Notes under the pieces: model-generated
Database searches by the model: none
Told to the model about the DNA's origin: nothing
The model's input: only the letters and a program-made list of their open reading frames with translations
Source: Gautieria morchelliformis
Lineage: Eukaryota > Basidiomycota > Agaricomycetes > Gomphales > Gomphaceae
Direction: 5' to 3'
Length of the DNA: 64,000 nt
Assembly (NCBI GenBank): GCA_015179125.1
Contig: WHVA01000024.1
Span: 1-64,000 of the forward strand
Shown here: one piece after another, positions 20,223-48,764 of the stretch
Numbering within the stretch: the stretch's first letter is position 1
Layout: each line of letters opens with the position of its first letter
Made by a program: the position numbers and the translations under genes

Positions 20223-20660
20223 GTGCATTCCATCAATGATCGAAAAGGCCTGACCTCCAGTTTCTCCTCCCGCAAGTAGCAACTCAATCCTTTCCTTCAT
20301 ACCACCTATGTAGTCATCATGTCAGATGCCATGACACCCATATACTTCAATTTCCAATACAGAAGACCAATTCAAGTGGAAGCTGTGGATGGATTTAAGA
20401 TCACATTGAAAGACTAACACTGGAATTGACGCACAAATAGAATGGCTCATTCCAGGAGGCAGTATTGCCTCTCGCAGAGACGCAGTCTTCTAGGGGGTGT
20501 CCGGATCGACGATGAGTTTCATGAAGCAGTGACTAGGAGGCTTGCTGGACAGTGTGACATTGGGAAGATGGTTGCATCTCAAGTCTGTTGCCATCGCCAA
20601 GAGTCAGTATACAATAGATAGTGCAAATGAAAGAACCCTTCCTGCGACTTTGATTGCTGC
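20223..20660 (-). pseudogene. C2/NACHT gene 2, N-terminal half (C2-like domain)
   Basis: On the minus strand this matches 11480-11935 almost base by base (SHSICASIPVLVFQCDLKSIHSF-like region, then GGMKERIELLLAGG and QAFSIIDGMH). It is the paralog of gene 1. It ends after GGAATGCAC at 20223, where LINE-B endonuclease sequence (GATCACTTCCC) takes over without any target duplication or poly(A), so the junction is a rearrangement, not an insertion. Its continuation is at 48765-49662 on the plus strand. Confidence 0.6.
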
Positions 20661-20693
20661 ATCAGGAAAAAAGAGGGTGTTACTTAGCTTGAC

Positions 20694-20970
20694 GTAGCGC
20701 ATGTAGCCCGTTTAGTGTCGTAGCAACCCCCCCTGTCATGTAGCCTTCCGTAGCCGACCGCCTGCCATTGTAGCGCGACGTAGTTCACTGTAGCACGCCA
20801 CCAAGCTCCGTAGGGATGTGTAGTCCTCTGAGGCCAGCGCCTATGGGGCAGCAGAGAGGCGACGTAGGAGGCAGTAGCATTTGCCCATGGCTGCGTATTG
20901 TGTGTAGCTAAGCCCATACGGCGTGTATAGTTGCGTAGAACGGCAGCGCAGCCTTTGGATTCTGGTGTAG
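20694..20970. repeat. GTAG-punctuated spacer with 10-bp phasing
   Basis: GTAG occurs 15 times in 277 bp: 20694, 20703, 20720, 20740, 20750, 20770, 20780, 20790, 20810, 20820, 20864, 20874, 20904, 20935, 20967. From 20720 to 20820 every start is at an exact multiple of 10 bp. The bases between are not repeated. No gene is recognised here. See findings. Confidence 0.7.
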
Positions 20971-21073
20971 GCACGCAGATAGGGTATAATACAGTCATTG
21001 GGATTGGGCAAATGGATGAATTACATATATTTATATGTGCTCTACACAGGAACGAGGATGCAGCTAGTGCCCT

Positions 21074-24000
21074 CTAACTATCCGAGTGCTCATCTTCATC
21101 GAGTGCCTGGGCGGCGCGAGCGAATTTGGCAGCATTGAATGCTGGCTTTTGAGGGTTTGTGACGATGTTCGGGAATCCAGCATGCGCAACAAGATACAGG
21201 AAGTAAGACCATGGTTCAGATATAAACAGGTGGAAAAAAACGCACTGTCCGTGATCATGCAGACGCTGCTGGTGTCGCGCCAGGGCCTGGCCAGACCTTT
21301 CGCTGTACGTGCGCCACGCCTCAAGGCCGCTGAGGTGTTGTCGATAAACCTCGGCATAACCGACCTCGGTAAAGTTGCTGCCCTTGACGTGGATGCCAGA
21401 CAGCCACTGGGATACAGCATACTCAACCTGGTCGAGGACATCGTTGCGGCAATCATATGACACATGGGTTTAGGACGTACCGCGGTGAAAACCAGTGCGA
21501 TGGTGGGCTCGGGTATTGGGTGGAAAGAAGTGCTATATATAATGCCATCGGCTCTCTTTTTCTTGGGGAACCACTGCTCGAGCACGATGTCTTCAAGGAT
21601 CGGATGCTGATATATTCCAGTAGATTCCTCAAAATCCTAGTGCATGGATCAGTGAGAGCCCGTGTGTGTAGTAGAACGCACCTCGTAAACATATCCATCA
21701 TCCTCTAGGAGTTGGGCCGCTAATACTTTGTTGTGATCAATTTGCCTCGGCTGCTGGCCATGTTTGAAGTTGTAATGCGATACAACTTTGGTCACAGCCT
21801 TGTCCTTGACCCGCCCTCGAATGGTCGATGCTCTCGCTGTTATCTACAGAACATAGTTGTCAGGGTTCACGCGTTTCCTTCCACAAGTTTCTATTTCCTT
21901 CCATGAGTTTCCGTCACCTTCCGTCAGTTTCCATAACCTTCTGTCACCTTCTGTCACATGTCACCTTCCATCACATGTCACTTTCCGTCACTTTCCGTAA
22001 CCTTCTACAAGTTTCCATCTCCCCTATTATGTAAGCCTTGCCAGCGCTATAAGACTGTAGCCCATGTGGTGGCGTTTGCTCAGCTTGATCTCTGAGGATA
22101 CCCACTACACAGGCAAGTCCCCATGTATCTATCGTTGGTAGAGTTATAAACTGAGGATACCCACTACACAGTTGGTCATTGTCCTAGTATCGGCTCTTAT
22201 CTCCTTGAGTATCTTTGGTTGTGGCTTCGTCATTAGTGTTGCCCTCACAGAAAATCAAGCTCATAGGACGACCCCACACACTTTTCTTAACCAGCCTTCA
22301 TCTCAGCCTATGGCAGACCAACTCCCAGACACATACTGGGACGCCCTGGGTGACCATGGGCCATTTCTTCGAGGCCTCCTTTCCAGCCAAGCACAGCAGC
22401 TGCAGCAACTTCAACTGCAGAATCAGGAACTGCACAATCAGATTGCTAACATTCACGACCACTTAGCCAATGCTGCCACCAACGCTGCTGTTGCTGCTGC
22501 TCAAGCCCTTGCGCCCTCAGTACCTCACAGTGTCCCTCCATCTACTCGCTCTATCAAAGCAGCAGAACCGGAGAAGTTCAATGGAGACCATGCAGAGACT
22601 GAAGGGTTTATCAGGTCTATCAAGTTGTCCATCGCTGTCCAGCCAGCATCCTTCCCAGATGAACGCACAAAGATCCTATACGCTCTTTCCTTCATGACGG
22701 GAGGCTCTGCAGAGATATGGGCACACAACGAGACACAGGCTGTCATTGATGGCACCTCCTCTATATCCACTCTGGAGGGGTTTATTAAACATGTGGAGGA
22801 GGCCTTTGGTGACCCAGATCGTGCCAGAACGGCTCGCACTACGCTGCATGACCTTAGGATGGCGTCAGGAATGTCGGCAGATGAATACACGGCTCAATTT
22901 GAGATCCTGGCAGGCAGGACAGGCTTTAATGATGAGGCACTCGAGGATGCCTATGCTCGTGGCCTTCCAGCGGGTATCCTTGACAAGATCCACGCCCAGC
23001 CCTTTCTTCCATCCAACCTCAAAGCCTGGAAGGAAGCAGCCTGTCAGATTGACTGCAATCATCGCCGTCTGTTAGAGGTCAGGAAGGCACAGACACCTCA
23101 TGTCCCTAATCGCCCTCCTCCTGCCCGACCACTCCACACTCCTGCTATGGCTCCTGTTGCCACAGCATCACCCAGTAACGCGACACCTATGGACATTGAC
23201 TCATCCCGCCGCCGCACCAAAACATGAACCTGCTACAACTGTAAGAGACCTGGTCACATTTCACCAGACTGTCCTGAACCTCGCAAGCCACGAATCCGTG
23301 CCAACCTCACAGAGGCAGACTTGCAGCAATTGTCTCGTAAATCTGTACCAGCGGCGATAGAGGAACGCAAAGAGAAGGTGGAAGCCCCTGTCCAAGAGGA
23401 AGGAAAGGGTTTTTAGGCCAGTCAGTGGTGAAAGACATGCCCTGCTTGACGAATCGGTTTTCAGTTCTCGAAACATGTACAATAGGGATCACAGGCGATA
23501 TGATGCATCCTTCTCCTATCCCTGATCGAATGAAACCAAACCAGCCATGCCGAAAACCCAACCCATCGCTCCAGTTGCTAATGCAAACCTTCCAGTCCCT
23601 CTATATGTCCGTACTGCTGACCTCCGCTGATGCACCAAAGTACCTCGCAAGGTCCACTCTGTTGACACAGGGCATCCACTTGCAATTGACTCCCTCCTTG
23701 ACAGTGGTGCTACAGGGATGTTCATCGATGTGGAGTTTGTAAGGGAACACAGACTTCGGACCCGTCCCCTACCCCATGCCATCCCCGTCTACAATATTGA
23801 TGGTACCCCAAATGAGGCTGGCTCAATCAAGGAAGAGGTCGACCTCATTTGCACCTTTGGGGATCATACGGAACGTGCCACATTCTCTGTCACGAGCCTT
23901 GGACAACTTGCCATCATTCTTGGTCACACATGGCTTGTTGAACACAACCCAGAAGTTGACTGGCGTACAGGAGATGTGAAGATGACACGCTGTCCCAAGT

Positions 24001-27000
24001 CATGTGGGGGCAGACCTGTTGTCAGAGGGCCCACAGTCGAAACTGTTACAGAAGAGAGTGTAGATCAAGAGGAGGTTCCCATACAGCACACCCGCTCCCT
24101 ACTTGGAGAAGGAGACAGGACCTTTGTCATCTTTGTGAATGAGAGTCTTGAAATGATTGGCGCAGGCCGGACTGTCTCCCAACAGCTTGCTGAACGGGCC
24201 TGCAAGTCTTCACCAGTCAGATCCTTCGAGGACCTTGTCCCTAAACCATACCAGGAGTTCAAGGATGTGTTTTCTAAGGAGTCATTTGACCAACTGCCTC
24301 CTCGAAATCCCTGGGACCATGCAATTGAGCTCACTCCAGGTGCACAACCCTTTAGCACAAAGGTTTACCCAATGTCACCGGTTGAGCAAAGGGAACTGGA
24401 TAACCTCCTTGAGGAGAACCTGAAGAGCCATAGTATCCGTCCTTCCAAGTCACCTATGGCATCTCCAGTCTTCTTTGTGAAGAAAAAGGACGGCAGTCTT
24501 AGATTTGTGCAAGACTACCGGAAGCTCAATGATATAACAATCAAGAATGCCTATCCTTTGCCCCTTGTTCCAGACATCATGAATAAGATTGCTGCTGGAA
24601 GGGCTAAATACTTCACAAAGCTTGACATTCGCTGGGGATATAATAATGTACGCATAAAAGAGGGAGATGAGTGGAATGCAGCCTTTCGGACAAATAGGGG
24701 CCTGTATGAACCTCTAGTCATGTTCTTTGGACTCACGAACAGCCCAGCAACCTTCCAGATGATGATAAATGACATCTTCAAGAGTCTCATCGATGAAGGG
24801 GTTGTGGTGGTGTTCATGGACGACATTCTCGTCTTCACAGAGTCGCTTGAAGAACATCGTAGGATTGTACGACGTGTCCTTGAAATCCTCCGGGCCAACA
24901 ACCTGTACCTCAAACCTGAAAAATGCCTATTTGAGCAACTAGAGGTGGAGTATCTCGGGCTCATCCTCTCTCAAGGACAGGTTGCCATGGACCCAGTCAA
25001 GGTTGCAGGGGTGCAGGACTGGCCAATACCACGTAACGTCACTGAAGTCAAATCATTCCTTGATTTCATCAACTTCTACCGTAGATTTGTGGAAGACTTC
25101 TCACACATTGCAAAGCCCCTCAACCAGTTGACAAAACAGGATGTGCAATGGTCTTGGGATCCAAAGGGCCCAGAGCAAGCGTCCTTTGACAAGCTCAAAC
25201 TCCTCATCACCTCAACACCGATCCTTGTCCTCCCTGATCAAGACAAACATTTCCGTCTTGAAACAGATGCCTCAGCCTATGCCACAGGAGCAGTACTGTC
25301 CCAGCTATGTGATGATGGAAAATGGCGGCCTGTGGGGTTTGTCTCCAAAAGCCTCAATGATGCTGAACGCAACTATGCCATCCATGACAAGGAGCTTCTT
25401 TCTGTCATTCGGGGATTAGAGGAATGGCGCCACATCTTAGAGGGAACAAAGCACAAGATTGAGATTCTCAATGACCATGATCCATCGTCCTGGTTGTCAT
25501 TCAGCCAAGCCTGATGCACTCTCACGACGCATGGATCATAAGCGGGGGGAGGAAGACAACAAAAATCAAGTCTTACTTACCCCTGACCTGTTCCACATCA
25601 AGGCGAATCCTCCAGAGGCTGGCGCGCAGTTAGTCCCAGGTGAAGGTGATGCTTTCCTCAATTGAGTAAGGAACTGTGTAGACCGGGATGAAAAGGTTGT
25701 CAAGGCTCTCAAAGAACTGGGCTCCTCCGGCAATTTACGAGGAGAAGAGTGGTCTGAACAGGATGGGCTTGTCCTCTATCATAACAAAGTGTACGTGCCG
25801 CTTGATGCAAAACTACGACATGACATAGTGAAGGCGCACCATGACATGCCTCTCACCGGTCACCCTGGTCGTTGGAGAACCACTGAACTAGTTGCTCGGA
25901 GTTACTGTTGGCCTGGGATGTGACGTTACATTGCAAAATACGTGAAGGCCTGTGACCTGTGCAACCGGACAAAAACCTTCCCTGCTTCTCCCATTGGAAA
26001 GCTTCTACCAAACCGTATCCCAGACCGTAGGTGGCAGGTTATGTCTGTTGACTTGATTGTAGAACTGCCTACCAGTCATGGCTATGATGCTCTCCTTGTT
26101 GTCGTCGATCGCCTCTCAAAGCGTGCACATGTCATTCCCACTACTTCAGATGTAACTTCAGTGGGAGTTGCCCGACTCTTCCGTGATCATGTTTGGAAAC
26201 TTCATGGGCTCCCTGAAGAAATCATCAGTGATCGAGGCACACAGTTCATCTCCCAGTTCATGCGTGAACTGAACAAACTTCTTGGTGTCAAAGTCGCTGC
26301 CTCTACTGCTTATCACCCCCAAACTGATGGACAGACTGAAAGGGTTAATCAGGAGATTGAGCAATACCTTCGACTATTCATCAACCAGCGTCAGGATGAT
26401 TGGTTCGAATGGATATCCTTGGCCGAGTTTGCCTATAACAACCGAATCCATGCCTCAACCCAGACTACACCCTTCATGTTGGACAGTGGCCAACATCCAA
26501 GGCTGGGACTGGAACCAGTCCGGGAAACTCAACTCGAGGCCCTGGATGAGTTCACAACGCGGATGGAAGTGGCCACGAGAGAAGCTCGTTCAGCCCTGTC
26601 CAAGGCAGCAGAGGACATGGCATGCTTCTATGACGTGCACCATAAAGCAGCCCCAGTTTATAAGCTTGGTGACAAGGTCTGGCTCAATGCACAAAACATC
26701 ACAACCACTCGCCCAATGAAGAAGCTAGACCACAAGTGGCTAGGTCCCTGCACAGTTAATAAGGTGGTCTCACGAAATGCCTATGGTCTAAATCTTCCTG
26801 CATCCTTTGGTCGCACACATCCAGTGTTCTCTGTCGTCCTGCTTCGGCCATATGAAGATGACCCAATTCTTGAACGTCATGCCCCTCCACCCCCCCCTGT
26901 CATACGGGATGGGGCCGAAGAATATGAAGTTGAAAGGATTCTAGACAGCAGGATGTTCCGTGGAAGGTTGGAGTATCTTGTGCGCTGGAAGGGCTATGGA

Positions 27001-29568
27001 GCTGCCGACGATCTCTGGCTACCAGCAAAAGATGTCTCTGGGGCAAAGCGACTCATTAAGGAATTTCACCAGCAGAACCCAGAGGCACCTCAGCGTATCT
27101 CAGCAGCCACATACATGTCCCTCCCTTTCCAGAGATTTCAGAACTTCACAGAACCTTCCAGGCAAACTCTCTTCGACTGGACAGCAGGCAGGGCTTCTAC
27201 TCATAATGTCAAGGGTCCAGGACCCCAAAGATAAGTGATATCGGCCTCCGCCTAACCAATTCATTCCGATAAGCTATATATCCCCTCTCCACCTGTGACC
27301 ACTCGCTTCCACTGCATCGACCCCACCACATCCATCAACCATGTCCTCGCCCGCCATTGAGCTTGTTGCCCTCCCCAGCTTCACCCAAAACCTCTCCGAC
27401 CTGCCAAACATGTCACGTGTCGATCCCACCCTCCTGCACTTCTCCGGCTTCTCGTCATCCAGAGCAGCCAGTGAAGCCAAGCTACAAAGGATGCTTGACT
27501 GCCGTGATCTCGACGTCGCATGGTCTTCAAAGTGGTCCGTCAGCTCTGAGGACCTCACACCAGCGAAGAGTCAGGCGCCCACTCGCCCTGCACTCGCACT
27601 CCTCAGACCCCGACACAGACGAGAGAACACGTACTACATCGGCGACCCTGTCTTCCTCAACGATGGAACCCCCCCGTGTGGAACCCCCTACACTTTCGAA
27701 GGCTGGGTGGGGCGACGTTTCCGTAACATGGCAGGAGAGCGAATACGTCGAGCAAGGTTCCGAGGGCCGCACTTGCCCATGGACCCCAATCCCCCTGAGC
27801 TCATCATTGACCTGCGTTACCAGGAAGGGAAGGGTCAGGAGAGATGGTGGTCCCACCTGTGGCATACTTGGAAACGATGTCTCGGTGGATGTTGGGGGCT
27901 AGGTGGCAGCTGTGCTTGTCGGGACGACAAGCATTGAGAGGGGGGTGATGTCAGGGTTCACGTGTTTCCTTCCACAAGTTTCTATTTCCTTCCATGAGTT
28001 TCCGTCACCTTCCGTCAGTTTCCATAACCTTCCATCACCTTCTGTCACATGTCACCTTCTGTCACTTTCCGTAACCTTCTACAAGTTTCCATCTCCCCTA
28101 TTATGTAAGCCTTGCCAGCGCTATAAGACTGTAGCCCGTGTGGTGGCGTTTGCTCAGCTTGATCTCTGAGGATACCCACTACACAGGCAAGTCCCCATGT
28201 ATCTATCGTTGGTAGAGTTATAAACTGAGGATACCCACTACACAGTTGGTCATTGTCCTAGTATCGGCTCTTATCTCCTTGAGTATCTTTGGTTGTGGCT
28301 TCGTCATTAGTGTTGCCCTCACAATAGTGGTCAATGTTAATGTGAGGGAGTTCGATAATCGTAAGCTTCACACCAGCGTAGTCAGACGCGGGGTCAGTGA
28401 GTGTGTCTCCCCCTTGCGGTCACAGGCGTTCCTCCAACACTCTTCGGCCCATTCTTCGCACACATCTGTGTCTGGGAACGCATTCTTCGTACAAATACGA
28501 ACCTGAAACTCAGTCATAGCCATTGTCAACAGGCTATTTGCTAGTCCCTCGTAATCCGCAGCTTTCGGCTTTTGTTTATGAAATTTCCTGAGTTTTTCTG
28601 GCCGTTCTTGGGTAGAGTCAACGTCAGTGTCGCTGTGGGTAGCATGTGTGCCGTCATGGGTTGCGGCGTGCGTGCATTTGCGTCCACTCGTCATCCCCTT
28701 GACTGAGAATGAGTGGGGGTCATTGAAGCAAAGGGAGGGCTCACCGCTGGGTCCATCGCGCCCACCAGGCCCTGTTCTTCGTGGGTCCGGTCCATGTGAC
28801 CGTTGTCAGGGTGTGGAACGGGAGAGGAGGCATATGGACGTTGTGGTGGGACTGCAGACCAGAGGGGTATGGGTGAGCTTGCGGTCTGGCACCGAACGGC
28901 CTTGGACACCGAAGGCCTAGAGGCGGCTGTGACAACTGCCGTTGTGCCCTTGAACGCAAACTAGAAGAAATGTGAGTGCAATACCATATAAAATAATAAA
29001 AATAAAAAAGGATTATGTGGAAGACGGACCTCGTTCGCCTGGATCCTTCCGGGACCTAACCGAAGGAAGAAAATGAGGAGATATTTGCAGCCACGGGCAC
29101 ACTTACAGGGCTGGGGCTCAGGGTCGTCTGCAGAATCATTGGTGTTCGGGTCATTCAGGAACTCTGCGATTTCCTCATCCCCTAGGCCTTCATCCCATAG
29201 AGCAGCGACCTCCACTTTCCAGGCTTCTTCAGCTCGCACTTGCACCTCACGTGCACGGTGACGTTCCCGTTGACGGGCAAGTCGTTGCTTGTCGGCCTCT
29301 ACCTGGATTTCTGGAACATAGGCTCATCGTAGATTACCCAAATAGCTCAAGGTAGATGGTACGTATGATACTCGAGTCCTTTTTCAGTCAGGCGAGTGCG
29401 TGAACTGGGATTGGTAGTGATGGTTTCGGTTGGTGCAGGGCCCACCAAAGGATGGGTCCTCGAGCTCGATTCATCATGAGTTGAGGCTTTCTTTGGCACA
29501 GTGGAACGGGTGGGGAGTTGGGTCAGGTTGATCTCCTGTAGAGCATTCCGTTTAGGCACTGGAGCCAT
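21074..29568 (-). CDS. DUF6532-like gene with a Gypsy element inside one intron
   Basis: The gene starts at ATG 29568 (MAPVPKRNALQEINLTQLP), continues through a charged coiled-coil-like exon (REVQVRAEEAWKVE; about 29325-29100), a low-complexity region (28960-28690) and an exon containing KPKAADYEGLANSLLTMAM and CEEWAEECWRNAC, ending at 28374. After an intron it resumes at 21843 with ITARASTIRGRVKDKA, then DFEESTGIYQHP (from 21636), FHPIPEPTIALVFTA (ends 21481) and VEYAVSQWLSGIHVKG (from 21427), stopping at 21074. The pattern KWS/EW acidic start, HPILEDIV, PIPEPTIALVFTA fits the agaricomycete DUF6532 family (function unknown, often TE-associated). Introns 21681-21637 and 21480-21428 are 45 and 53 bp. 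The junction near 28690 needs an intron or one frameshift. Splicing across the enlarged intron is untested. Confidence 0.6.
21858..22249 (+). repeat. Gypsy 5' LTR
   Basis: 392 bp, TG...CA ended. Its U3 contains a run of about ten variants of CCTTCYGTCAC / TTTCCGTCAC / CACAAGTTTC in 130 bp, a degenerate 10-11 bp repeat that differs in copy number from the 3' LTR. Confidence 0.95.
22310..23410 (+). pseudogene. Gypsy gag with CCHC zinc knuckle, one nonsense codon
   Basis: ATG at 22310 begins MADQLPDTYWDALGDHG, followed by a glutamine-rich coiled coil (LQQLQLQNQELHNQIANI), a retrotransposon gag capsid-like domain (PEKFNGD, LSFMTGGSAEIWA, LHDLRMASGMSADEY) and a proline-rich linker. A TGA at 23225-23227 precedes an in-frame zinc knuckle CYNCKRPGHISPDC. 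The frame then slips at the GGGTTTTT run near 23408-23415 into the pol frame. Gag packages element RNA into virus-like particles. Confidence 0.88.
23411..27234 (+). pseudogene. Gypsy pol: protease, RT, RNase H, integrase, chromodomain (broken)
   Basis: Protease active site LLDSGATGMF lies near 23695-23728, after two in-frame TGA codons (23523-23525, 23628-23630). RT: FTKLDIRWGYNN and VVVFMDDILVF (about 24805-24842). RNase H: LETDASAYATGAVL and HDKELLSVIRG. The C-terminal part of RNase H is deleted: NDH joins MIHRPGCHSAKPDALSRR out of frame at about 25475. Integrase: H/H and C/C zinc fingers (KAHHDMPLTGHPGR, CDLCNRTK) with in-frame stops near 25665 and 25921, then catalytic SVDLIV, ISDRGTQF and QTDGQTERVNQEIEQ. 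Near 26920-27080 EVERILDSRM, then EYLVRWKGY and DLWLPAKDV form a chromodomain, which in chromoviruses directs insertion to modified chromatin. Stops at 27232-27234. Confidence 0.93.
27274..27282 (+). promoter_or_regulatory. TATA-like box upstream of the Gypsy accessory ORF
   Basis: CTATATATC at about 27274-27282 follows a CCAAT (27254-27258) and precedes the ATG at 27341 by about 60 bp, with CATCAACCATGTC as start context. This is a plausible internal Pol II promoter between pol and the 3' LTR; activity is inference. Confidence 0.4.
27341..27937 (+). CDS. Accessory ORF downstream of Gypsy pol, unknown function
   Basis: A 198-codon frame (MSSPAIELVALPSFTQNLS...) lies in sense between integrase and the 3' LTR, where env-like or accessory genes sit in some LTR elements. 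No transmembrane helix or signal peptide is visible, so it is not env-like. The sequence has a serine-rich start, a basic middle (RPRHRRENTYYIGDPVF), a segment GWVGRRFRNMAGERIRRARF and a Gly/Cys-rich tail. A second frame (27357-27902) is also open for 181 codons, so which frame is used, if any, is unsettled. Its end overlaps the polypurine tract. Confidence 0.4.
   Translation: MSSPAIELVALPSFTQNLSDLPNMSRVDPTLLHFSGFSSSRAASEAKLQRMLDCRDLDVAWSSKWSVSSEDLTPAKSQAPTRPALALLRPRHRRENTYYIGDPVFLNDGTPPCGTPYTFEGWVGRRFRNMAGERIRRARFRGPHLPMDPNPPELIIDLRYQEGKGQERWWSHLWHTWKRCLGGCWGLGGSCACRDDKH
27936..27945 (+). other. Gypsy polypurine tract
   Basis: GAGAGGGGGG lies 3 bp before the 3' LTR start (27949), the usual place for plus-strand DNA priming in LTR retrotransposons. 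Confidence 0.75.
27949..28323 (+). repeat. Gypsy 3' LTR
   Basis: 375 bp; same ends as the 5' LTR, shorter by 17 bp in the degenerate CCTTCYGTCAC array. It is followed directly by the target duplication ATAGT. Confidence 0.95.
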
Positions 29569-32600: not shown

Positions 32601-34013
32601 CTACACAAGGGTGTCTTCAAGGACCATATGGTGAATTGGTGTGTCAAGATGGCTGGGAAAGGGGGTGCGCAGGAGGTGGACGAGCGATTCAAATGTCTGC
32701 CAGACCATCCAGCTCTAGGCCACTTCAAAAAGGGAATCTCTACAATATCTCAGTGGACTGGGCGCAAGCACAAGGAGATGGAGCACGTATTTGCCAGCCT
32801 TATTTTTGGTGCTGTCCTACCTGATGTGGCTGCTGTGGCACGAGCAACCATTGATTTCATATACTATGCATCTTTCCCATCCCACCCCACAGAAACTCTC
32901 CGACGCCTCCAGGATTCACTGCAGACATTCCATGAGCACAAGGCTGTCTTCATCAAAGCGGGCATCAGAAAGCACTTCCGAATTCCAAAAATCCACATTA
33001 TGGAGCATTATGCACACCTCATCCAAGCAAAGGGTTCTGCAGATGGCTTCAACACAGAAATGTCAGAACGACTTCATATTGACTGCGCGAAGGAAGGGTA
33101 CCGTGCAAGCAACAAGAAGAACTATATGCAGCAAATGATCCAGTACCTCTGGCGCCAAGAATCCATCCACAAATTCACTGCATTCCTGGCATGGACAAAT
33201 GCCACCCGCCCCGTTATCAACAGGAGCGATGATGAGGATAGTGATTCATCCACTGAGAGCGAGACCTCAGGCATGGAAGAACCTGTTGAACCAATCTCTT
33301 GCGTACCTGGCACCCGCTGGCATATTCCCAAGCAAGCTCCAATGCCTGGGACATCCCTCCAGGACCTCATCGAAAACCATGGCGCCCTGGACATTGTAGC
33401 AGCTCTAGGCATGTATCTTCACCAATACGTGCCCCATTGCCAAATCACACCTTCCAAATTTGACCGCATTGACGTATACACTCGCCTCTACATCGACCTT
33501 CAATCCCCCCAATGCCTTGATGATGATATCCAAAAAGATATCATACGAGCATGCCCAGCAAGCCATTCTCCCTGGAAGAAGTATTTGGTCCCTGCACACT
33601 TTGACACTGCATTAATACATGACACACGGGATGCGGAGGATATCGGACTTAAAGGTACGAGTGGCAACCCTGCCGTCCACCTCTCCTCACCATGATGTAT
33701 AGGGTACCGAGCTGCTCGCATACGCGCCATTTTATGTTTGCCACACTGGTTTGAATGCTCAGACACATTGGCTTATATTGAAAGGTTCACCAACTTTACC
33801 TTGCCTGTAGAGCCACTCCGGATGTCCCAAGTCTCATATTCCATGCGTCATAACCGGAAATATGGAGAGATAGTCCGCATGAACTCAATCACGCGCAGCT
33901 GCCATCTCACCCCAAAGTTTGGCAGTGCCAAACACCGCAACCAGACCTGGACATCAGAAAATGTCCTAGATGAATGCCCCACTTTCTTTTTGAACTCACA
34001 GCTTAGTTACTAA
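29696..34013 (+). pseudogene. Plavaka-type (CACTA superfamily) transposase
   Basis: ATG at 29696 gives MPPPQGRQIYLCHACHRAC, an N-terminal C2H2-like finger, interrupted by an in-frame TGA at 29828-29830 (KKK*IDKKKK). Exon 1 ends at 30271, exon 2 is 30330-30647, exon 3 resumes at 30702; introns are 58 and 54 bp. Plavaka hallmarks follow: EELFVWCRNPVDCVKELIGNPAF, LASDKTQLSQFSGNKQ (first catalytic Asp), after the solo LTR VLLGYLPVTKLECL, then ECFTPDLLHQLHKGVFKDH (second Asp), and TEMSERLHIDCAKEGYR (Glu). A second in-frame TGA is at 32415-32417. A final intron (33655-33702) leads to the last exon ending at 34013. Both stops fit CGA to TGA. Terminal inverted repeats were not found. The 5' end must be close to 29570, where the DUF6532 gene starts divergently. 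Confidence 0.88.
30843..32112. repeat. Solo LTR (1,270 bp) inside the Plavaka transposase
   Basis: The sequence begins TGTCATGACGCG and ends ATCTTGACA, with TGTCA/TGACA inverted ends. It is flanked by a perfect 5-bp duplication GTCAG (30838-30842 and 32113-32117). Deleting it with one duplication joins AIRRQ to PSKQAMVLLGYLP in frame, which is the expected family text. No internal coding region is visible. Orientation is undetermined. Confidence 0.88.
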
Positions 34014-35236: not shown

Positions 35237-35724
35237 TGTTAGCAACTAGGGGCTATGGCAGGGAAGGTTCGGTAGAGTTCTTAGAAAGCTAGAATCAAAT
35301 ATACTCTCTCAGTGAATTTATTGTCACTGATGTATTAATACAATACCTAGAATCAAATATACTACATGATTTTCAGTCAACATGCTATGTAAATATGAAG
35401 AATACTACTCGCCTCTCTCAGTGAATTTATTGTCACTGAGAGAGGAGTGTAATCCTGTCTCAGAAGGCATATACTTGCACCCGGCCCTTTAGCGCCCAAG
35501 GGCTCGCGCGTCGAAGTCATTTCAAACTCCGCTGGGTGCAGCCGCCTATGAAAATAGAAATAACAGAATGGAATGGAGAGATAGGGAGTGACTAGAAAAT
35601 TTCGAAAATAAGCAGAGAAGTGGATGCATAGTACAAGAACAGTATGAGAAAATATTGAAACACCACACAATAAATTGAATATATTATGCTTGATTTTGGT
35701 GCAGGAGCATAAATGCACCCAACA
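35237..35724 (-). repeat. Copia-1 3' LTR
   Basis: 488 bp. In element sense it starts TGTTGGGTGCATTTATGC. It is preceded, in element sense, by the purine-rich CTTGAGGGGCG that serves as polypurine tract. A motif CTCTCTCAGTGAATTTA occurs repeatedly in the LTR. Confidence 0.95.
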
Positions 35725-35736
35725 CGCCCCTCAAGC

Positions 35737-38700: not shown

Positions 38701-39983
38701 CTGCCTTTACGATTGGATATTGTGCATTTCTGATCAGCTATTTGTGTGTTATAGCCTGCATCATCGCACCGGCCGATCGAGATGAGGGTAACAGCCATTT
38801 TTGGCGCGTAGAACGTATCCTTCAATGTAATGTTCACAGTCTTATCTCCAACCTTGTTAGATAGCACGAGTGAGCCTGAACCGAAGGCATCAAAAGTGCC
38901 TTTGTTGGCTGCACGAATTGTGCGCGGCTGTGAGAATGGACTGTAATCCCTCAATAAATTCTTGTGAGGGGTCATATGTGCGGTCGTTCCAGTGTCGAGA
39001 ATAACAACAGTGTCCAGAGATAAACTACTCAAATTAGAGCAGTCGAAGTTGGCGAAAGCGGCTGGACTGCCACTCTCATCCTCCTCAGAGGACACTTCTT
39101 CGGCAACATTCGCCTTGGCTTTGCCCTTCTTCTTTTTGGCTTTCGCTTTCTTCTTCTGACGTGGCCCCTGGCCTTCTTTACCACCTCCTTTAGCCCAGCA
39201 ACTCTCTATAGCATGTCCAGGCTTGTGGCAATTAGTGCATGTAGACACCTTCGGGTCTTTCCGGCCCTTCTGCCCTTTCGTAGATGAACCAATAAATGCC
39301 TGCTCTTCTTGTGAAATATTGAGAGTCTTTCTCCTGTCGTATTGAGCCTTTAGTACTCTGATAATATCATCAGGCACTAAGGGCATTCCACATTCTTCGA
39401 GCGACGTGGTAAGGGCATTCATAACTGCCTCATAGGAGGGTGGAAGTGATGCAAGGATGATGTCGGTGAACTCTCCTTCAGAAATTCTGGCTCCCATCTC
39501 ATTGAGACGAGCATAGAGGTCTTGGGCCTTGTCCAAGTGATCTCTCAAGTCTCCATCCTCAGGACACCTCATACTGCGAAGCTGTCTCTGTAGGTTGGTG
39601 AGGACCATATTGGGCTTTTTGGTCATCTCATTGACCAATGCATCCCAGACTTCTTTTGCTGTATGTCTCTTCTGTAGCATCAGAGCTAGTGACTCTGACA
39701 CTGAGACGATTATTTGGGTTTTGGCCTGTCCTTCTCTGGCAAGATACTTTTCCAGCTTCTCCTCAGCCTTCTCAATCTGAGTTTCCTCAGCTTCTGTGAG
39801 AATATGGCCTGGGGGCATGACTGGAGGATCAGGAGGTCGAATGGCTCTCCCTTCTATATGCCTGAGTAGATTTTTGGACTCAAAATAACTTGTGAGAGTA
39901 GCTCGCCACAGAGGCCAATTACTTCCATCTGTTGCAAGCTTCTCCACACCCAAAAGCTTCTGCGAAGTGTCTGCGGGGCCCAT
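35737..39983 (-). pseudogene. Copia-1 gag-pol polyprotein, one frameshift
   Basis: ATG at 39983 (MGPADTSQKLLG) starts a polyprotein of about 1,400 residues. In order: UBN2-type gag; CCHC knuckle CTNCHKPGHAIESC (about 39195-39240); protease ILDTGTTAHM; GAG-pre-integrase H/H and CDAC; integrase core with YSDVWGP, LVSDRGGEY and ESNGVAERLN; RT (QMDVDSAYLNA, catalytic TAVDDLTI near 36690); RNase H (YSDADW, STEAEF, YSDNQSA). A small deletion near 37630 (SEEA then out of frame; Copia-2 has SEEAKIEEID here) shifts the frame between integrase and RT, so the frame is split at 37590/37503. Everything else is open. It ends at 35737. Confidence 0.95.
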
Positions 39984-39988
39984 AACCC
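39976..39988 (-). other. Copia-1 primer-binding site for half-tRNA iMet
   Basis: In element sense GGGTTATGGGCCC lies 2 nt after the 5' LTR. It is complementary to GGGCCCATAACCC, the anticodon-arm sequence of eukaryotic initiator tRNA-Met, the primer mode known for Drosophila copia. The element's own start ATG (39983-39981) is inside this site. The tRNA match is from general knowledge; the host tRNA is not in the window. Confidence 0.6.
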
Positions 39989-39989
39989 T

Positions 39990-40474
39990 TGTTAGCAACT
40001 AGGGGCTATGGCAGGGAAGGTTCGGTAGAGTTCTTAGAAAGCTAGAATCAAATATACTCTCTCAGTGAATTTATCACTGATGGATTAATACAATACCTAG
40101 AATCAAATATACTACATGATTTTCAGTCAACATGCTATGTAAATATGAAGAATACTACTCGCCTCTCTCAGTGAATTTATTGTCACTGAGAGAGGAGTGT
40201 AATCCTGTCTCAGAAGGCATATACTTGCACCCGGCCCTTTAGCGCCCAAGGGCTCGCGCGTCGAAGTCATTTCAAACTCCGCTGGGTGCAGCCGCCTATG
40301 AAAATAGAAATAACAGAATGGAATGGAGAGATAGGGAGTGACTAGAAAATTTCGAAAATAAGCAGAGAAGTGGATGCATAGTACAAGAACAGTATGAGAA
40401 AATATTGAAACACCACACAATAAATTGAATATATTATGCTTGATTTTGGTGCAGGAGCATAAATGCACCCAACA
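39990..40474 (-). repeat. Copia-1 5' LTR
   Basis: 485 bp, nearly identical to 35237-35724 (missing TTG in TTATTGTCACTG, and G for T nearby). Ends adjoin the GAAGC target duplication. Confidence 0.95.
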
Positions 40475-40829
40475 GAAGCTTGCTTCCCTGCGAAGGTGTA
40501 CCTGCGCCATGTATTTATACTGTAGATAAGCGCTTGCACTCTAGCCGACCATAGAAAGGGGATGTTTATGGTACAAAGGGCCCGGATATGTATCTTACAT
40601 ATGATACATAAGCACGTTTGAGCACGGAGGACTATGCAGACTTACTCAGCCACGCGCACGACTATGTGGGCTACGGTAGACCACATGACGCGACGTGCTG
40701 GTAGGCGCCGCTACCAGAATTTCGGGTTTTTCCTGATGTGCGGGAATACTTCGGGGTGGAGAGTGAACCTGGCAGTTGGCTCACTGGAGAAGTGGACTTA
40801 CGCTACCATGCCTTTATCGTTGCGCTAAA
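40475..40829. other. No gene recognised
   Basis: Flank between Copia-1 and the C2/NACHT gene remnant. Contains a near-palindromic TATGTATCTTACATATGATACATA at about 40588-40611. No domain is seen. Confidence 0.4.
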
Positions 40830-42505
40830 CGTTGTTCATTGTTGGCAGTGTTCAAGATGGCTGGTACGTGGAAAACGATGACGAGAGGCGCCGCACGGCA
40901 CTCCGTACTTCGGACCTGTCATCGCAGACATCGACACTCCCATGTTCCCGGTAGTGTTGCCGGCAGCTCCGCTTGGTTCGGCTTAAGCCGGCAGCCGAGC
41001 TCCTTTTTAGGGATATAGACCGCACGTGCTCCTTCCCATCAAGGGTACCCATGATGTCTTCTTCGGCATGGGAGGTGATCAGAACGCGGAAGTTAGGCGG
41101 CAGTTCTCCAGCTTCGTTGCCAAGGACAGACAATAGCCCCTCGCAAGATTTCTGGTCTCCACTCTCATCCAATGCATCAATAACAATCACCGTTGGTCCG
41201 ACAGACGTTAGCCCATGGGCGGCATCTAGAATGAACTTCTGGAACTGCTGATGAGGTATGCGTGCGGTCTGAAGTGTTCTCTTCCCTCCGGCCACTTTCA
41301 ACAACGATGCTTTGCGTTGTCAGTCCAGATCAGCCAGATCACGCGCAATCGTGCTGAAGATGTTGGCGGGGGATCGCTCTGCCAGATGAGTGCAGTCAAA
41401 ACAGTACGATGATCCAAGACGGTTGAGTTTATCAAATCGTCGTGCGACCTTGTGAGCAATCACTGACTTTCCCGAACCCGCAACATCATTCAAGAAAAAT
41501 ATCCATGGGGTGTCGTCCCTATCCTGGTTGACCCAATTGCAGATATTCCCAACAACTTGCTCGCAAGTATCCGGCAGGCAGCCTTTTTGAGGATCGCAAC
41601 CAGCTCCTGGTGCGTAGGGCATGTCATTAAGCTGAACTTCCCCGGCTGATTGCAAGGGGTATTAGGCTCGGGAAAGGCCCAAAGTCAGAAAACTCACAGA
41701 GCTCGCCGACGGCATCCAGAACACATAGTACTTTGATTTTGATGACGGCGTGTTCCTGTAATGCCGACTTGAGATTCATGAACGCTTCCCGGTATTGGGC
41801 GACCTTGCTGTCGACATCCAACCATAGATTTTTCATGGTTCTTTCCCCTGAACAAAGATCGTGAGGTATGACCACCTAACAGTGGGTTCAACATACCGAA
41901 TCCCTTGTTTTTTTTTGCGTAGGCACGGACAAAGTAGCTGCACTCTAACGTCTGTTGCATCAAGGCTAAGATAATTGGCTTTTGCAATTCAATTTCCTTC
42001 AACGGCTCTGCTAAGTGGACGAACGCATAGGTGTCTCCAATGAGTTTCGCCAGTTCATTGATGCTATTATCCCGGTCTCTCTTAGCAATGATCGTCTGAG
42101 CCAGATGTCAGATATGTCAACTCAGCGGGTGCATGGGATAGGTCTACCTTTGGTACACTAGACAGGATAGACCATGCCATTTTCGTGTAAGGATGGACCT
42201 AGAATAAAGCAAATCATGTACATGAGATGATCTGGGAGACTGCCAACATTTGAACACACTTCGGAGATCCCATCCACGATCTCGGTAAACAGCCTGATAT
42301 TGTCCAGGAGCAGATCCCAGGCCACCATTGTTGGGATGACAGAATTATTGGTGGTGGAAATGATGCCATCGACCACATTCCCTGCTTCAATAATTGCGGA
42401 CGGCGCTGGGTTCATACTATCGACCACTTTCACATCACTGACTGCTTCACTCAACAGGGCCTTCCACGCCTCGTCGAACGTCGTGAAAGACGTGATGGTA
42501 AACTT
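40830..42505 (-). pseudogene. C2/NACHT gene 1, C-terminal half (NACHT ATPase), decayed
   Basis: From 42505 downward the exons read FTITSFTTFDEAWKALLSE, VHPYTKMAWSIL, INELAKLIGDTYAFVH, YREAFMNLKSALQEHAVI, then the NACHT entry DMPYAPGAGCDPQKGCLP, Walker A region FFLNDVAGSGKS and Walker B TVIVIDALDES. Introns are 45-60 bp with GT-AG borders (for example 53 bp between ELS and GEVQLNDMP). Lesions: the first glycine of the P-loop is Asp (codon at 41485-41487), and TGG has become TGA at 41320-41322. After ISLK (about 40990) the match ends and the sequence turns into a copy of the region that lies 5' of gene 1 (11325-11420), as expected if tandem paralogs had recombined. NACHT proteins are NLR-like nucleotide-binding switches; this one should be non-functional. 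Confidence 0.8.
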
Positions 42506-43034
42506 TAGGACAGTCTTTTTTTTTATTATTTTTTTTATTTTATTATTTTTTTTATGTCATTTTATTCGACCCCAGGCTAGGCCTATGTTGGTCGCTACAC
42601 GCATTGTACTACAATTGGGTGGGCCTTCCCTCTCGCTCCCTAGGGCTCCCATCCCACTGAGTCCTCGAGCGGGCGAGTGCACTGAGGACGAGCTCCCTGC
42701 CCCCCACCAGCCCGGCTCCTTGAGCCGTTTCTCACCCCACTCACTTGAGATAAGTACTCCCATTCCCCTGTTGGTTGTTCTAGTGTGTGGGTGGTCTGGC
42801 TTTCTAAGTGCTCGGCCGCCGAGGTGGGCTGGCACGACGTGTGGGAGCACCGCAATCGAAGGTAGAAAGGGGGTCCACGGACTTCTTCTTGGTCTTGCTG
42901 CGACGAGTCAGTACGCGTTGCTGCGCGAGCAGTGTGGGGAGATGTTTATGAGGGTTTTGGTCGCACAATGGCGTGGTGGTGTTGTCCTCCGGCTTGTATT
43001 CTAGCGTCCCTGTCAAGCTAGTTATCTTATGCTT

Positions 43035-45600
43035 TTAAGTCGGTGACGGGGAAACGTCACCAAATGCCGCTTTCAGCCTGCCCATCGCCGCTACATATCT
43101 TAGTAACATCTCCATTGAGCCCTTTTCACCCAGCAGCTCCTTGATGGACCCTGACTTTCTGCCCAACTTCTGTCTCACCCTGTGACGTGCGTGCTCGTGC
43201 GCTCTGCAATCGAAGAGGAAATGATGGACCGTCTCGTCGGCCCCATGGCACACCGGGCACAGCGGGGACGGCACCTGCTTGACCCGATGGAGGTGCTTGT
43301 TGAGTGGGGCATGGCCTGTGCGCAGCTGCATGATCAGGCTGTTCTGCGCTCGAGTGAGGCCCGCCATGTCTCTGAGGTAGGTGCGCGAGGGTAGGCTGTC
43401 GTCGATCTTCGCCATCCTCCCGTAGCGGGGCGACGCTTTCCATGCTCTCTCCAACTGTGCCTGTTGCCTGTCTTGAACTCCTACCTCGCAGCGGCCAAAC
43501 TGCGTGGGAGCGCGTCAGCCACTAGGAAGGGTGGGAGCCTACTTATCTGGCTGCTCTCTCCAGCTGCTGCCTCCTTTGCTGCTGTGTCTGCGGCCTCATT
43601 TCCTTCCACATCGTCGTGACCCGAGATCCACGTGATCTTGAGGCGCACGTTGCGTCTCCTCAAGGGCGTCGCCATCCTGTTGGCCATGTCGTGGATGTGT
43701 CCCAGGATATGCTGCGCCGGCTTGGGCTTGACGTTACCCACCGCCAGTATGACCCTCTGGTTATCTAGGAGTATGGACGCCGTTCTGACACCCTTTTCCC
43801 GACTTAGTAGCTCCAGCGCCAGAATGACGCCCACCGCCTCCGCCTCATACGTGGTGTGGTCCGCGAGTGGGCCCAGGTGGTACTGTAATCTCGCCCTGTA
43901 TAGTACCGCCGCCGCCCCCGCGTTGCCTTCTAGTCCCGACCCATCGGCGTATACTTTGGCATCCGCTATGTTTTGAGCGTCCACTTCCTTAGATTCCTCC
44001 CTCGACTCCACTATCTCGGTGACAAACAGCCTGGGAGCGTCGGGAGTATGGACAAAGGGCTGGATGACCTCGAGGGAGTCCGGGTTGAGGCTGAAGTGGT
44101 GGAGGATCCTGTGCAGCGGTGCCGGGTGCTTCTTTACCAGGCGGGGGCGCAGGAACGATCTGGATGGTGCAGTGGGTGGGGCTTGGGGAGGGTTGCGATA
44201 CAGCTGGCGGCCTTGTAGCAGATGCCTAGGAGGAGGAGCTCTACCGGCTGGATGTTGGCGAGGACCTCCAAGATGTCGCTGGTGGTTGTGCACATCACTC
44301 CAGTGATAGCAATGGTAGCCATACGCTGCACAGATGTTAGCTTACGCACCACTCCCACAGACCCTGTCGCTCTCCCCTCCCCTCGATTCTTCTGCACCGG
44401 CGTGTACCAGACATCCGCAGCGTACATGAATTTGGGTATTGCCACTGCGCTGTATAGCTGCCTCATGTATGTTGCGCGTGATAAGAGTTGCTACAAATGT
44501 ATTTGGATTTTATTCAAGCTTCAAGTCAAGCTGAATCGAGTAGAGGTCTGAATTCTGAGAGGACTGCTTGTACTACGGGAACTATTTCGATCAGGAATCT
44601 TGAGACGGTGGAGAGGTAAAACTATTGTTATTCTTGTTCGACAGTTACATTCTTTTGTACTATTTAACTACTGGAAAGGACTCGGCGTCTATACGATACG
44701 TACGGTATGTGATGTAGAGATATAGGGGGGTGTGGAGTATAGTCTGGAGTGAACTCTCGAATGAATATTACAAGGGAATGCTAAGGATTCGTTGTACATA
44801 AGACGATGGTGTGGAAGGACATGTGCGTGATGTATAGGGGAAATCATGGAGCTGTGGCTAGAGCCGCTCAGGGACGATCAGATGCATATCGTGTCTCGGT
44901 CCCAATTGAATTGGTGCCTAAGCAGAGATTTGTGTCCCGGGTCGGTCTCTCGATCGAGATTGATGGGATCGACATATGTAATATGATGCTGATTGACTTG
45001 GCGTGCCCTGTGCGCGTGCGTGATAATGTATTGGTCCGGCGTCGCGTATATGCGAGTCAGGGGATTCGGGGATATTTCTGTGTATTGGCGTATGGGCGCA
45101 GGCAAGGATTATGGGGATTGTTTGGTTCGGTGACGTCAGTGTATTTTTTAGGGTCAGATCTGAGTGATATCATTAACGTCGTTACTTGAATATCATAACA
45201 GCGCATACCCCTGTGGAGGGTTTAGTTAGTCTGCGAGCCAGTAACGTCCACTTAGCCGCTTTCGCCACTGCCTTCTCAGCTTGATCAACTCCTCGTCCAA
45301 GAAGACTCATAGGAACTTGTGTGCTGATGTTGGCTGGACGACAGCATCCTCGTACGTGAAGTGGGGTCTTATGTCACGCTTGGTTTTGCCTGGCCTCGCA
45401 GGGTCTCCCATTCGGCGTCTTGAACACTCTACTATCGCGAATTTGGACTTTTCGAATCTGGAGTGGTGGGTCAGCGTCCACTCTTTCACCCCCCCCTCCT
45501 TGAGCAGCATCTCCCTCTGTAAGCCACCGCGGCCTGCCCCTTCCCGTTAGCGATATCTATGATGTCAGCGTTATAGTAGAGGTAGAGGATCATGGAGAGC
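43035..45600 (-). pseudogene. LINE-A ORF2 3' part: RT thumb and RNase H
   Basis: Starts at LSMILYLYYNAD and NGKGQAAVAY, then jumps (GCTTACAGAGGGAG) to MLLKEGGVKEWTLTHHSRFEKSKF without the F/YVDD motif, as in the other tandem unit at 16580-16598. After the solo LTR it continues with MRQLYSAVAIPKFMYAADVW, RNase H AKVYADGSG, TTYEAEAVG, ILLDNQRV and EGNEAADTAAKEA, and the cysteine/histidine cluster CPVCHGADETVHHFLFDC. Frameshifts are seen near 45265, 44160 and 43465. It ends at 43035. Confidence 0.85.
44479..45200 (-). repeat. Solo LTR (722 bp) inside LINE-A
   Basis: On the minus strand it begins TGTTATGATATTC and ends AACTCTTATCA. Plus-strand flanks GCGCG (44474-44478) and GCGCA (45201-45205) are a 4/5 match. 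Removing it with one flank joins STGVCA to TYMRQLYSAVAIPKF in frame, the expected LINE text. No internal genes are present; orientation follows TG...CA and is otherwise arbitrary. Confidence 0.82.
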
Positions 45601-45771
45601 GGGGAACTCTTTTGCACTCCAACCACCACCGTAGTCCGGGCGCTTAAGAATCCCTACAATACCAAAGCCGTTTTTCCAACCCACACACTAAACATAACAC
45701 ACTATAGTGGATCGCTGGCCACAGTCAGCGATACCACTAAGCTTCTACCAAAAAGAAGCCACCAAAAGACG

Positions 45772-48044
45772 ATGCCGACGCACATAGACCCCCAGCCACC
45801 TGCCACATCACAAAGTCGCACAAGGGCAACCTGTTGGGTGCATTTATGCTCCTGCACCAAAATCAAGCATAATATATTCGATTTGCTGTATGGTGTTTCA
45901 ATCTCTTCTCGCATTGTTCTTGTACCATGCACCCATTTCTCTGATTATTTTCGAAATTTTCCAGTCACTCCTTACCTCTCCATTTCATCTTGTTATTTCT
46001 ATTTTCACAAGCGGCTGCACCCAGCGGAGTCTGAAATGACTTCGACGCGCGAGCTCTTGGGCGCTAAAGGGCCGGGTAGTAGTACATGCACAGTGAGACA
46101 GATTTCCCCCTCTCTCAGTAACAACTAAATTCACTGAGAGAGGCAAGTAAATTAGTCTAGTGTTCTTTCGATTTATTGACCTAGAAATCCTCTGTAGTGA
46201 ATTAATTTCTAGGTAGTGTATAATATACTTACAGTGACAACTAAATTCACTGAGAGAGTGAATTAATTTCTAGTCTATTCTTTTGAGCAAGCAGTCCATA
46301 CCTACTGCCTATAATTCCTGTCCTCTACACAACCACCGCTCAGCAATCCACAAGTAAGACTAGAGCCGACCTGTTAGCAGACCCGAGCGCGACAGTGCGC
46401 AGCAGGGAACAAGCTAGGGGCTTCCTCGACAGATACGGCTACCTAGCAAAAGACGACCTGTTGTCAACGGAACAGCTGAGAAATACGCTGCTGTCATTAG
46501 TTCACAACGTCAGTGGAAAGACCCTACAAGAAGGGCTCAGAGCCGTAGCAATCCTGATGATGGAAGAGGCGGCGAGGACGGTAGGAGCGGCGGTGAAGCG
46601 GCACGTAGAAAGAGGACTGGAACCGGTCCTCACAAAGATCGAGAAGGTAATAGAAGACGCGAAGGAAGCTGCAGAGATGGCGAAGACGAATACAGAAGGA
46701 GCCTGCAATGTAATAGAACATTTGGGCAACATATGCAAGCAGAGAGAGCAGGAGCGGGAAAACGGAGCAGGGAATGCAACATACGCAGCCGCAGTAAGAA
46801 GTAACGTACCGCTCTCACACCGCAATAACCTGGTGAAAGCGAAAGCGAAAGCCAGGCAGATACTGATCGACAGAGACCCGCAAGGAGAGCAAGACACCCT
46901 AGCAAACCTAACAGAACAAGAGTTGGTCGCGAAAGCAAACGAAGCTATCAGCAACCTAGAGGAAGATATCGAGCAAGACAACGTAGTTTTCATCGCCGCC
47001 AAAAAACTCGCCAACGGAGGGATAGTATTCAACCTAGAAACGGAACAGGCGGAAAAATGGATACAGATGAACAAAAGAACGTTTCTAAGCAAATTCGGCG
47101 GCACGGCCCCTATAAAAGACAAGGCGCTATCAGTAATAATCGAGTACGTACCCCTAAGTCACTCACCGGATGCCCTAGCGGAGATGAGGAAGATCAAAAG
47201 AGAATCGAGACTACCTGAAGGTTCACTGCTATCAACACGATGGATAAAACCAATACATAGGAGATCACCGGGTCAAAGGTCCGCTCATGTTATTGCAAAG
47301 TTCGCCACCACCGAAGCTGCAAATCGGAGCATAAGGGACGGTATAATAGTGGCTGGAAAACACATGTGGGTGAGGAGGATGAAAAGAGAACCACGTCGAT
47401 GCTTGAAGTGCCAAAAGTATAACGCCCGCCACATCGCTGCAGATTGCAACAGCCAGGACACATGTGGAACATGCGGAGACGAGCACAGAACCGCCGACTG
47501 CGAAGAAAATGACCCGGGTAAATATTACTGCGCAAACTGTGACACCCATGGGCATGCCTCATGGGACAGAACATGCCCCGTGTTCAGAGAAGTGTGCACC
47601 GCAGCAGAAAGAAGCGACCCAAAACATACCTATAAATACTTCCCGGACGAGAGCCCGTGGACATGGGAGCAACAAGGTGACACGGCGGACGCAGTAGACG
47701 CAGGGGAACTTTTAAAGAAGCTGAGCGCCCGGGAGGACAGAAGGTGGAGAGCAACGCAAGAGATGCACCGAAACGGAGAGTGGACAGATAGTGGGGACCA
47801 ACAAGAACCACAAGGGAGACATGACATACCACGGCTGCGAGCGAGGATGGAAGGCAGAGAAGCAGCCGGGGGAGAAAGAAGGGGCGCGAATCCACGAATC
47901 GGCAACAGAGACCAGGGATGGGAGAGGCTAGAGCAGGGAGAAATCAGGCAGAGCCGACTAGATGACTACGGAATCGGCGGCAACAACGACCAGACACGAG
48001 CAAGACGGCAAAGTGGCAGCGAAAATGACATACACCGAGAATGA
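45772..48044 (+). pseudogene. LINE-B ORF1 (RNA-binding, three zinc knuckles), split by solo LTR
   Basis: ATG at 45772 opens MPTHIDPQPPATSQSRTRAT, which is cut by the solo LTR at 45831. After the LTR and duplication the same frame continues TAQQSTSKTRADLLADPS and runs open to 48044; the joined product would be 589 residues. It has a long helical, lysine/alanine-rich region (about 46550-46860), a conserved middle domain (KKLANGGIVFNLET, VIIEYVPLSHSPDAL), three CCHC-type knuckles (CLKCQKYNARHIAADC, CGTCGDEHRTADC, CANCDTHGHASWDRTC near 47400-47580) and an acidic/arginine-rich tail. It is the best-preserved non-LTR ORF1 here. Confidence 0.85.
45832..46329 (+). repeat. Solo Copia LTR (498 bp) inside LINE-B ORF1
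   Basis: Starts TGTTGGGTGCATTTATGC, ends CCTCTACA, and is flanked by perfect CAACC duplications (45827-45831 and 46330-46334). It is closest to the Copia-2 LTR (shares GGCACCTACTGCCTATAATTC-like 3' end and CTAGAAATCAATTC blocks), less close to Copia-1. Insertion restored in silico keeps the ORF1 frame. Confidence 0.93.
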
Positions 48045-48059
48045 ACGATGAAACCTCAC

Positions 48060-48764
48060 AGATCAAAACGTTAAGAATCAGGCAACAGAACTAAATAAAT
48101 CGCTAACAGCAACGGCAGAAATACTAGCTAAGTGCCCGCACGACCAATATGACATTCCGCGATACAGGAACCGTATATTGACTTTTTGGGAAACGCCAAG
48201 GCCACACCTAGATGCTACACGGTGTACCCGAAGACCCACTACATACATAAAGGTGAAAGAACGAGATCCATGATGTTAATAAGCAAGAGACTCGCCACAA
48301 ACGGATGGAGCGCGGTAGACATAGGCTCGCCGGATGTCTGGGCGGTACGGGTGAAAACCAGCAACGGTGACGTGCTAATAATTAACATCTACTTGGACTG
48401 TGCAAGGTCTGACAGCATCAGAGCTATTCAGCGACACCTGCGAGAAAAAGCAGCAGAAAGGGGATCGAGGGAACTAGAAGTAGAAGGGATGATATGGCTG
48501 GGGTATTTCAATAGACATCACCCGATGTGGGATGAACTACGAAATTCGCACCTATTCACTAGGGCCAACCTAGACGAAGCACAAATGTTGTTGGATGCCA
48601 TAGCAGAGCATGGGATGCACATGGCGCTTCCAAAAGAGATTCCAACGCTCAGGGCCATGTCCACAGGAAATCACACGCGCACAGATAACATCTTTATATC
48701 ACCCTCGCTAGTAGAAAATCTGATCAGTTGCACAGCAGAGCCGGTAGATCAACCTCCAAAAAAC
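48060..48764 (+). pseudogene. LINE-B ORF2 N-terminus: APE-like endonuclease, broken
   Basis: The start (IRQQN, then LNKSLTATAEIL) is split by a one-base loss near 48088, and another shift occurs near 48160. The main frame 48186-48764 reads FLGNAKATPRCYTVYP, VINIYLDCARS-like text, WLGYFNRHHPMW, LPKEIPTLRAMSTGNHTRTDNIF. The catalytic GDFNRHHP is GYFNRHHP here: Asp is replaced by Tyr, which should abolish nicking. The frame ends at DQPPK; the next residues TDHFPVDT are at 20222 on the minus strand. Confidence 0.8.

Follow-up and report, generated by a model that had tools for sequence, protein, structure and literature searches.

A probable two-break inversion of 28,540 bp in a transposon-rich, NLR-like gene locus of Gautieria morchelliformis

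A segment of 28,540 bp, at positions 20223-48762 of the window (the whole 64,000-nucleotide stretch analysed, bases 1-64000 of contig C271), has very probably been turned around by an ordinary, balanced inversion with two breaks, as judged by comparison with related sequences. Four features are split by it, the two LINEs termed here LINE-A and LINE-B and the two C2/NACHT genes 1 and 2, and all four are confirmed as real. Both ancestral joins are present in intact relatives within the same genome, among LINE-B copies and C2/NACHT loci; the two joints in the window are reciprocal, each consisting of one half of parent A and one half of parent B; and each joint pattern occurs once in the 122-Mb assembly (1,113 contigs) with up to three mismatches allowed. 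Joints that are each unique in the genome, together with un-flipped joins that recur in relatives, amount to more than chance. Events of this kind are well known, and the value of the present case is that it is a very legible example.

The original prediction held that a single flip of 20223-48764 would explain the four splits. Alignment to intact LINE and C2/NACHT copies elsewhere in the genome recovers both un-flipped joins, and one flip restores the order found in intact LINE-B and C2/NACHT relatives as well as the register of both pairs of LINE target-site duplications (TSDs). The left joint (J1) lies where it had been placed, at 20222|20223, between minus-strand LINE-B (GATCAC...) and minus-strand gene 2 (...GGAATGCAC). 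The right joint (J2) is 2 bp further left than proposed, at 48762|48763 rather than 48764|48765, between LINE-B (...CCTCCAAAAA) and gene 2 (ACATAATC...), with a 1-bp ambiguity at a sixth A. The locus is not named in the titles and abstract openings of the papers listed by the literature searches.

Results

The relatives of LINE-B bear out the idea that this element is split between 16786-20222 (minus) and 45601-48764 (plus) at a point inside its endonuclease, with the end of the second part corrected to 48762. The 3' part (16786-20222, minus strand) holds the end of the endonuclease region, assigned by position, followed by RT, RNase H and poly(A), with domains called by Pfam and a zf-RVT match scoring under the Pfam cut-off; the 5' part (45601-48762, plus strand) holds the apparent 5' end, an ORF1 with no Pfam match and the start of the endonuclease. 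The LINE part of the query matched eight other places in the genome, six of which were fetched (L002-L007, leaving out C448 and C515). Five of these six are continuous across the join and read ...CCTCCAAAAA-GT-GATCACTTCC..., that is, the window up to 48762, 2 bp, and the window from 20222 on the opposite strand; two of the five are interrupted by other DNA further on (L007 ~25 bp and L004 ~236 bp past the join). A longer stretch of the L006 locus, L061, contains a whole, uninterrupted element. It aligns at 96-97% identity to each of 45658-45831, 46330-48762 and 20222-16786 in turn (96.5% for 16786-20222 against L061 3716-7155), with 2 bp separating the 48762 end from the 20222 start on the other strand. 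It is without the LTR-like insertion found in the window's 5' part at ~45832-46329. Twin-priming, which inverts only within a newly made LINE copy, was rejected as the source of the split, since LINE-B has an apparent 5' end and one copy of its TSD (45594-45603), and its two parts are separated by 25 kb of other DNA.

For gene 2, the predicted split into a minus-strand piece starting at 20223 and a plus-strand piece past J2 stands, with resumption at 48763 instead of 48765; a third piece, beyond a 20.1-kb transposon, had been overlooked. The piece between that transposon and J1 spans 20223-20659 (minus) by comparison with family loci, the 3' part past J2 spans 48763-49826 (plus), with homology picking up again at 50167-51191, and the 5'-most surviving piece is found at 40739-40931 (minus), its similarity possibly extending to ~40960. 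This last piece is contiguous with 20661-20222 in L008, L011, L057 and others. The parts running from 20657 to 20223 and from 48763 onward adjoin in 19 of 19 loci, with aligned ends 0-38 bp apart, the set being all loci that the four gene queries each matched over 80% or more of their length, apart from the window and L062 (a second cut of the L008 locus).

When the printed letters are counted, exactly 3 nt separate the two parts in 18 of 21 loci, where L059 departs and L016 and L054 are not evaluable. In each of the 18, these 3 nt lie between the CAC (or CAT/GAC) closing the window's left piece and the following TA, and the aligner output has the parts abutting in 10 and overlapping by a shared AC in 8. 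The window has ACA at the place of the spacer in its right joint. With the gene 2 letters at the break taken from paralogues, the simplest reading is that gene 2 would have been cut with nothing lost or gained, which would put the right joint at 48762|48763. Two of the related loci, L017 and L018, match almost identically and are possibly not independent. The C2/NACHT family is a mosaic, in that over the 19 loci the identity to the window in the 5' half is uncorrelated with that in the 3' half (gene 2, Spearman -0.28, p 0.25; gene 1, 0.39, p 0.10); nearest-relative pairing of gene halves therefore adds no support and was set aside as an uninformative test.

LINE-A also lies in two parts. The 5' part (12026-16785, plus) carries a 277-bp tandem duplication (16318-16594 / 16595-) and an insertion (14046-14536), and the 3' part with its A-rich tail (42516-45600, minus) carries an insertion relative to other copies at ~44479-45201. 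Its proposed position within gene 1 is confirmed by a 9-bp TSD, GACTGTCCT, whose outer copy (12017-12025, plus) and inner copy (42507-42515, minus, now reversed) are equal at 9/9 bases; the sequence is single-copy in the four family members compared. LINE-B in turn sits reversed in LINE-A (16785 to 45600), as had been suggested, and has a 10-bp TSD with outer copy CCCGCTCACC (16776-16785, plus) and inner copy CCCGCTCTCC (45594-45603, minus, now reversed), equal at nine of ten bases with one mismatch. In each pair one copy is outside the segment and its mate is inside and reversed; an inversion leaves pairs divided in this manner, with the two members in opposite orientation across a breakpoint. 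The TSDs of elements wholly within the segment are undisturbed (gypsy ATAGT, copia GAAGC, Plavaka 2 bp).

The 5' part of gene 1 (10765-12025, plus) closes in the LINE-A TSD, and its 3' part, with NPHP3_N, occupies 41006-42515 (minus) and is truncated at 41006. The split proposed for this gene, from 12025 to 42505, is real, with resumption at 42515. Genes 1 and 2 had further been described as standing in tandem on the plus strand; the order holds after un-flipping, but the pair is a truncated fusion that takes an extra rearrangement. The gene 1 family match stops at 41006 and the gene 2 match begins at ~40960, with ~47 bp of unmatched filler between them, so that gene 1 lacks its 3' end and gene 2 its 5' end. 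This fusion is an older or separate event, and the inversion does not explain it. It might be supposed that replication-based template switching, or another multi-break event, made the inversion and the fusion at 41006/~40960 together, given a third breakpoint in the same locus and its filler; but every misplaced piece that was followed is explained by the two inversion joints with no further break, these joints are without clear filler, and the fusion is enclosed by the segment and could be older. We consider such a combined origin unlikely.

As to the kind of gene involved, the NACHT-type NTPase matches NPHP3_N at 75 bits in the relative L060 (read with X at stops) and at 32.3 bits in window gene 1, and a C2 domain match in the relative L062 reaches 17.1 bits against a Pfam cut-off of 22. 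Basidiomycete NLR candidates with an N-terminal C2 domain are known (PMC4986451). The genes here resemble the candidates described there in having a putative C2-like stretch followed by an NPHP3_N/NACHT-type NTPase, and differ from them in that the C2 match is below the Pfam cut-off and both window genes are broken.

An error of assembly or library construction would place 20223-48762 in the wrong orientation while the fungus itself carried the un-flipped order, and the segment is indeed rich in repeats. Orientation errors, however, usually require long terminal inverted repeats, and between the breakpoint regions the strongest match is one of 20 bp at 90% (E 0.026); moreover, both false joints would have to hit the same two points in non-homologous sequence and be reciprocal to 2 bp. 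No un-flipped copy or second haplotype was found among the best 40 candidates scored per search, in searches that took in little of the segment's interior. Among the candidates scored, the 3' part of gene 2 reached at most 90% elsewhere, the left flank was matched only in part (over 1.2 kb at 88%, and by a repeat of 0.7 kb at 97-98%), and the right flank had a 2.6-kb, 95% match on C753. Match pairs of equal score (C683/C450; C482/C997) suggest that parts of the genome may be present twice; doubling of the window locus was not seen among the candidates scored. On this evidence we hold an artefact to be very unlikely.

Relatives have the pieces in the order that un-flipping gives, which on the plus strand is the 5' part of gene 1, LINE-A with LINE-B antisense inside it, the 3' part of gene 1, the 5' piece of gene 2 and the rest of gene 2. 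Two double-strand breaks, one within the LINE-B endonuclease region and one within gene 2, would have been repaired by end-joining without homology, a step that we infer, leaving the intervening piece reversed, with 2 bp (GT) lost from LINE-B and the letters and spacing of gene 2 apparently intact. End-joining of two breaks fits best because the breakpoints have no common homology. With parental letters taken from relatives, no bases are shared at the joints, and the loss is 2 bp in LINE-B and ~0 in gene 2; as is characteristic of end-joining, there is no long homology and at most a few bp are lost, gained or shared. Within 150 bp of the breaks, the intact parents are no more alike than shuffled sequence: the direct comparison scores 12, where shuffles average 11.5 and 214 of 500 do at least as well, and the inverted comparison scores 9, a value attained by 497 of 500.

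These comparisons do not support the proposal of GATCA/AATCA-type microhomology at the breakpoints. The motif (ATCA) lies beside both breaks but is common to the two sides of neither joint, and at both joints the new sequence has no base in common with the partner that it replaced. Microhomology-mediated joining was rejected on the lack of any shared base at either joint, with the gene 2 letters again those of relatives. Recombination between inverted repeats was rejected as well, since in a comparison covering 1,500 bp on each side of the breakpoints the best match was the 20-bp one cited above, which lies away from the joints.

Small inversions repaired by non-homologous end joining are a general known class, and the present case is like them in its two breaks, balanced flip, loss of a few bp and joints without homology. 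Nothing essential differs, and paralogues in the same genome make both cut parents legible. Rearranged, transposon-rich fungal DNA has also been described in Verticillium dahliae, with 6 inversions among 19 rearrangements, and is ascribed there to erroneous double-strand repair (PMC4971763). Twelve breakpoints were reconstructed in that report, 8 over similar transposons, 2 with a transposon in one strain only and 2 in other similar stretches, and its authors infer homology-based repair; unlike these, the breakpoints in the window are without homology.

The sixth fetched LINE-B locus, L002, is broken after AAAAAGTG, 1-3 bp from the break point in the window. As a check for an ordinary element insertion at that break, a further 2 kb of the contig was read; it matches the window over no more than 296 bp, at 71%, and a search for the next LINE letters found none in it. 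The inversion and the apparently separate disruption of L002 fall 1-3 bp apart, which a purely random break leaves unexplained, and this observation counts against the best explanation. It is nevertheless highly doubtful that breaks recur in this genome at GTGATCAC, an 8-bp palindrome in LINE-B; if they did, the inversion would be one result of a site made fragile or cleaved in a sequence-specific manner and not of a random break.

The transposon that cuts gene 2 is a PlavakaB-type DNA element of 20,079 bp (20660-40738, plus), with ends CATCAGGAAAAA on both sides, a 2-bp TSD and a transposase in pieces at ~30297-33692. PlavakaB elements have termini CATCA..TGATG, a TSD of 2-3 bp and a Plavaka transposase (PMC12730594), all of which 20660-40738 shares; it differs in carrying two nested elements, a Ty3/gypsy-type LTR element (21858-28323, plus, TSD ATAGT on both sides) and a Ty1/copia-type LTR element (35237-40474, minus, TSD GAAGC from its flanks). 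Among 11 related loci (L022-L032), six are short Plavaka versions whose left and right ends agree with those of the window element to within a few bases. In the few ORFs scanned there was no match to a TET/JBP domain. It is extremely improbable that a transposon caused the breaks, whether by a LINE endonuclease cut, aberrant Plavaka transposition or LTR recombination: elements crowd the locus and one joint half is in a LINE, but neither joint coincides with the end of an element, the cut in LINE-B is in mid-element, the ends and TSDs of Plavaka, gypsy and copia are intact, and no repeat spans the joints.

The order of events is LINE-A, then LINE-B, then the inversion. In 3,736 columns the window LINE-B has 63 private substitutions, compared with 44 in L006, 40 in L003 and 47 in L005. 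Between the two copia LTRs there is 1 substitution in 485, with 3 gap columns besides; between the two gypsy LTRs there are 5 in 375, with 17 gap columns besides. Given equal rates, the few differences between the copia LTRs, set against the private substitutions of LINE-B, make copia the younger of the two. Since gypsy and copia lie inside Plavaka and all three have their own TSDs, these insertions can be placed before or after the flip; if they came after it, the flipped piece was shorter than it is now.

Discussion

The inversion leaves both the LINE-B endonuclease and gene 2 broken. The locus offers a base-level example of the decay of a transposon-rich fungal cluster of NLR-like genes, through nested insertions and then an inversion that appears to be homology-free, in which paralogous copies reveal both original sequences and no sister genome is needed. 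There is a warning for annotation as well: the chimeric ORFs over the joints, 19845-20321 (minus) and 48153-48815 (plus), are by-products of the flip and not genes.

A second LINE-B break near the inversion point

One of the six LINE-B copies fetched from the assembly, L002 (contig C970, about 178998-179013), is broken after AAAAAGTG, only 1-3 bp from the breakpoint of the inversion in the window. Past this break, about 25 bp without a match are followed by similarity to the interior of the window's Ty1/copia-type element.

Duplication and insertions in the nested LINEs

LINE-A, the LINE inserted in C2/NACHT gene 1, contains a tandem duplication of 277 bp (16318-16785), the copies of which differ by 9 substitutions over 191 bp. 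At the related LINE-A loci L040-L049, both copies match a single stretch, and it is the second copy in the window that served as the insertion site of LINE-B. LINE-A also carries an insertion of about 490 bp (14046-14536) that, among the matches listed, is found at 96-98% at many sites in the genome, and that is perhaps a solo LTR. Close to the 5' end of LINE-B lies a copia-LTR-like insertion (45832-46329) without a counterpart in L061, another LINE-B copy.

C2/NACHT genes and reading frames

The truncated genes 1 and 2 are fused at 40931-41006, where filler of about 47 bp includes a repeated CTGCCGGC. The 5' part of a third gene of the C2/NACHT family lies at 57192-58208 on the minus strand, with 82% similarity to the related locus L062 that stops at 57192. 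An open frame of 158 codons (19845-20321, minus strand) crosses the left joint of the inversion, running from gene 2 sequence into LINE-B. The large Helitron reading frame (6480-10334), with Helitron_like_N and PIF1 helicase domains, is open over 1,284 codons.
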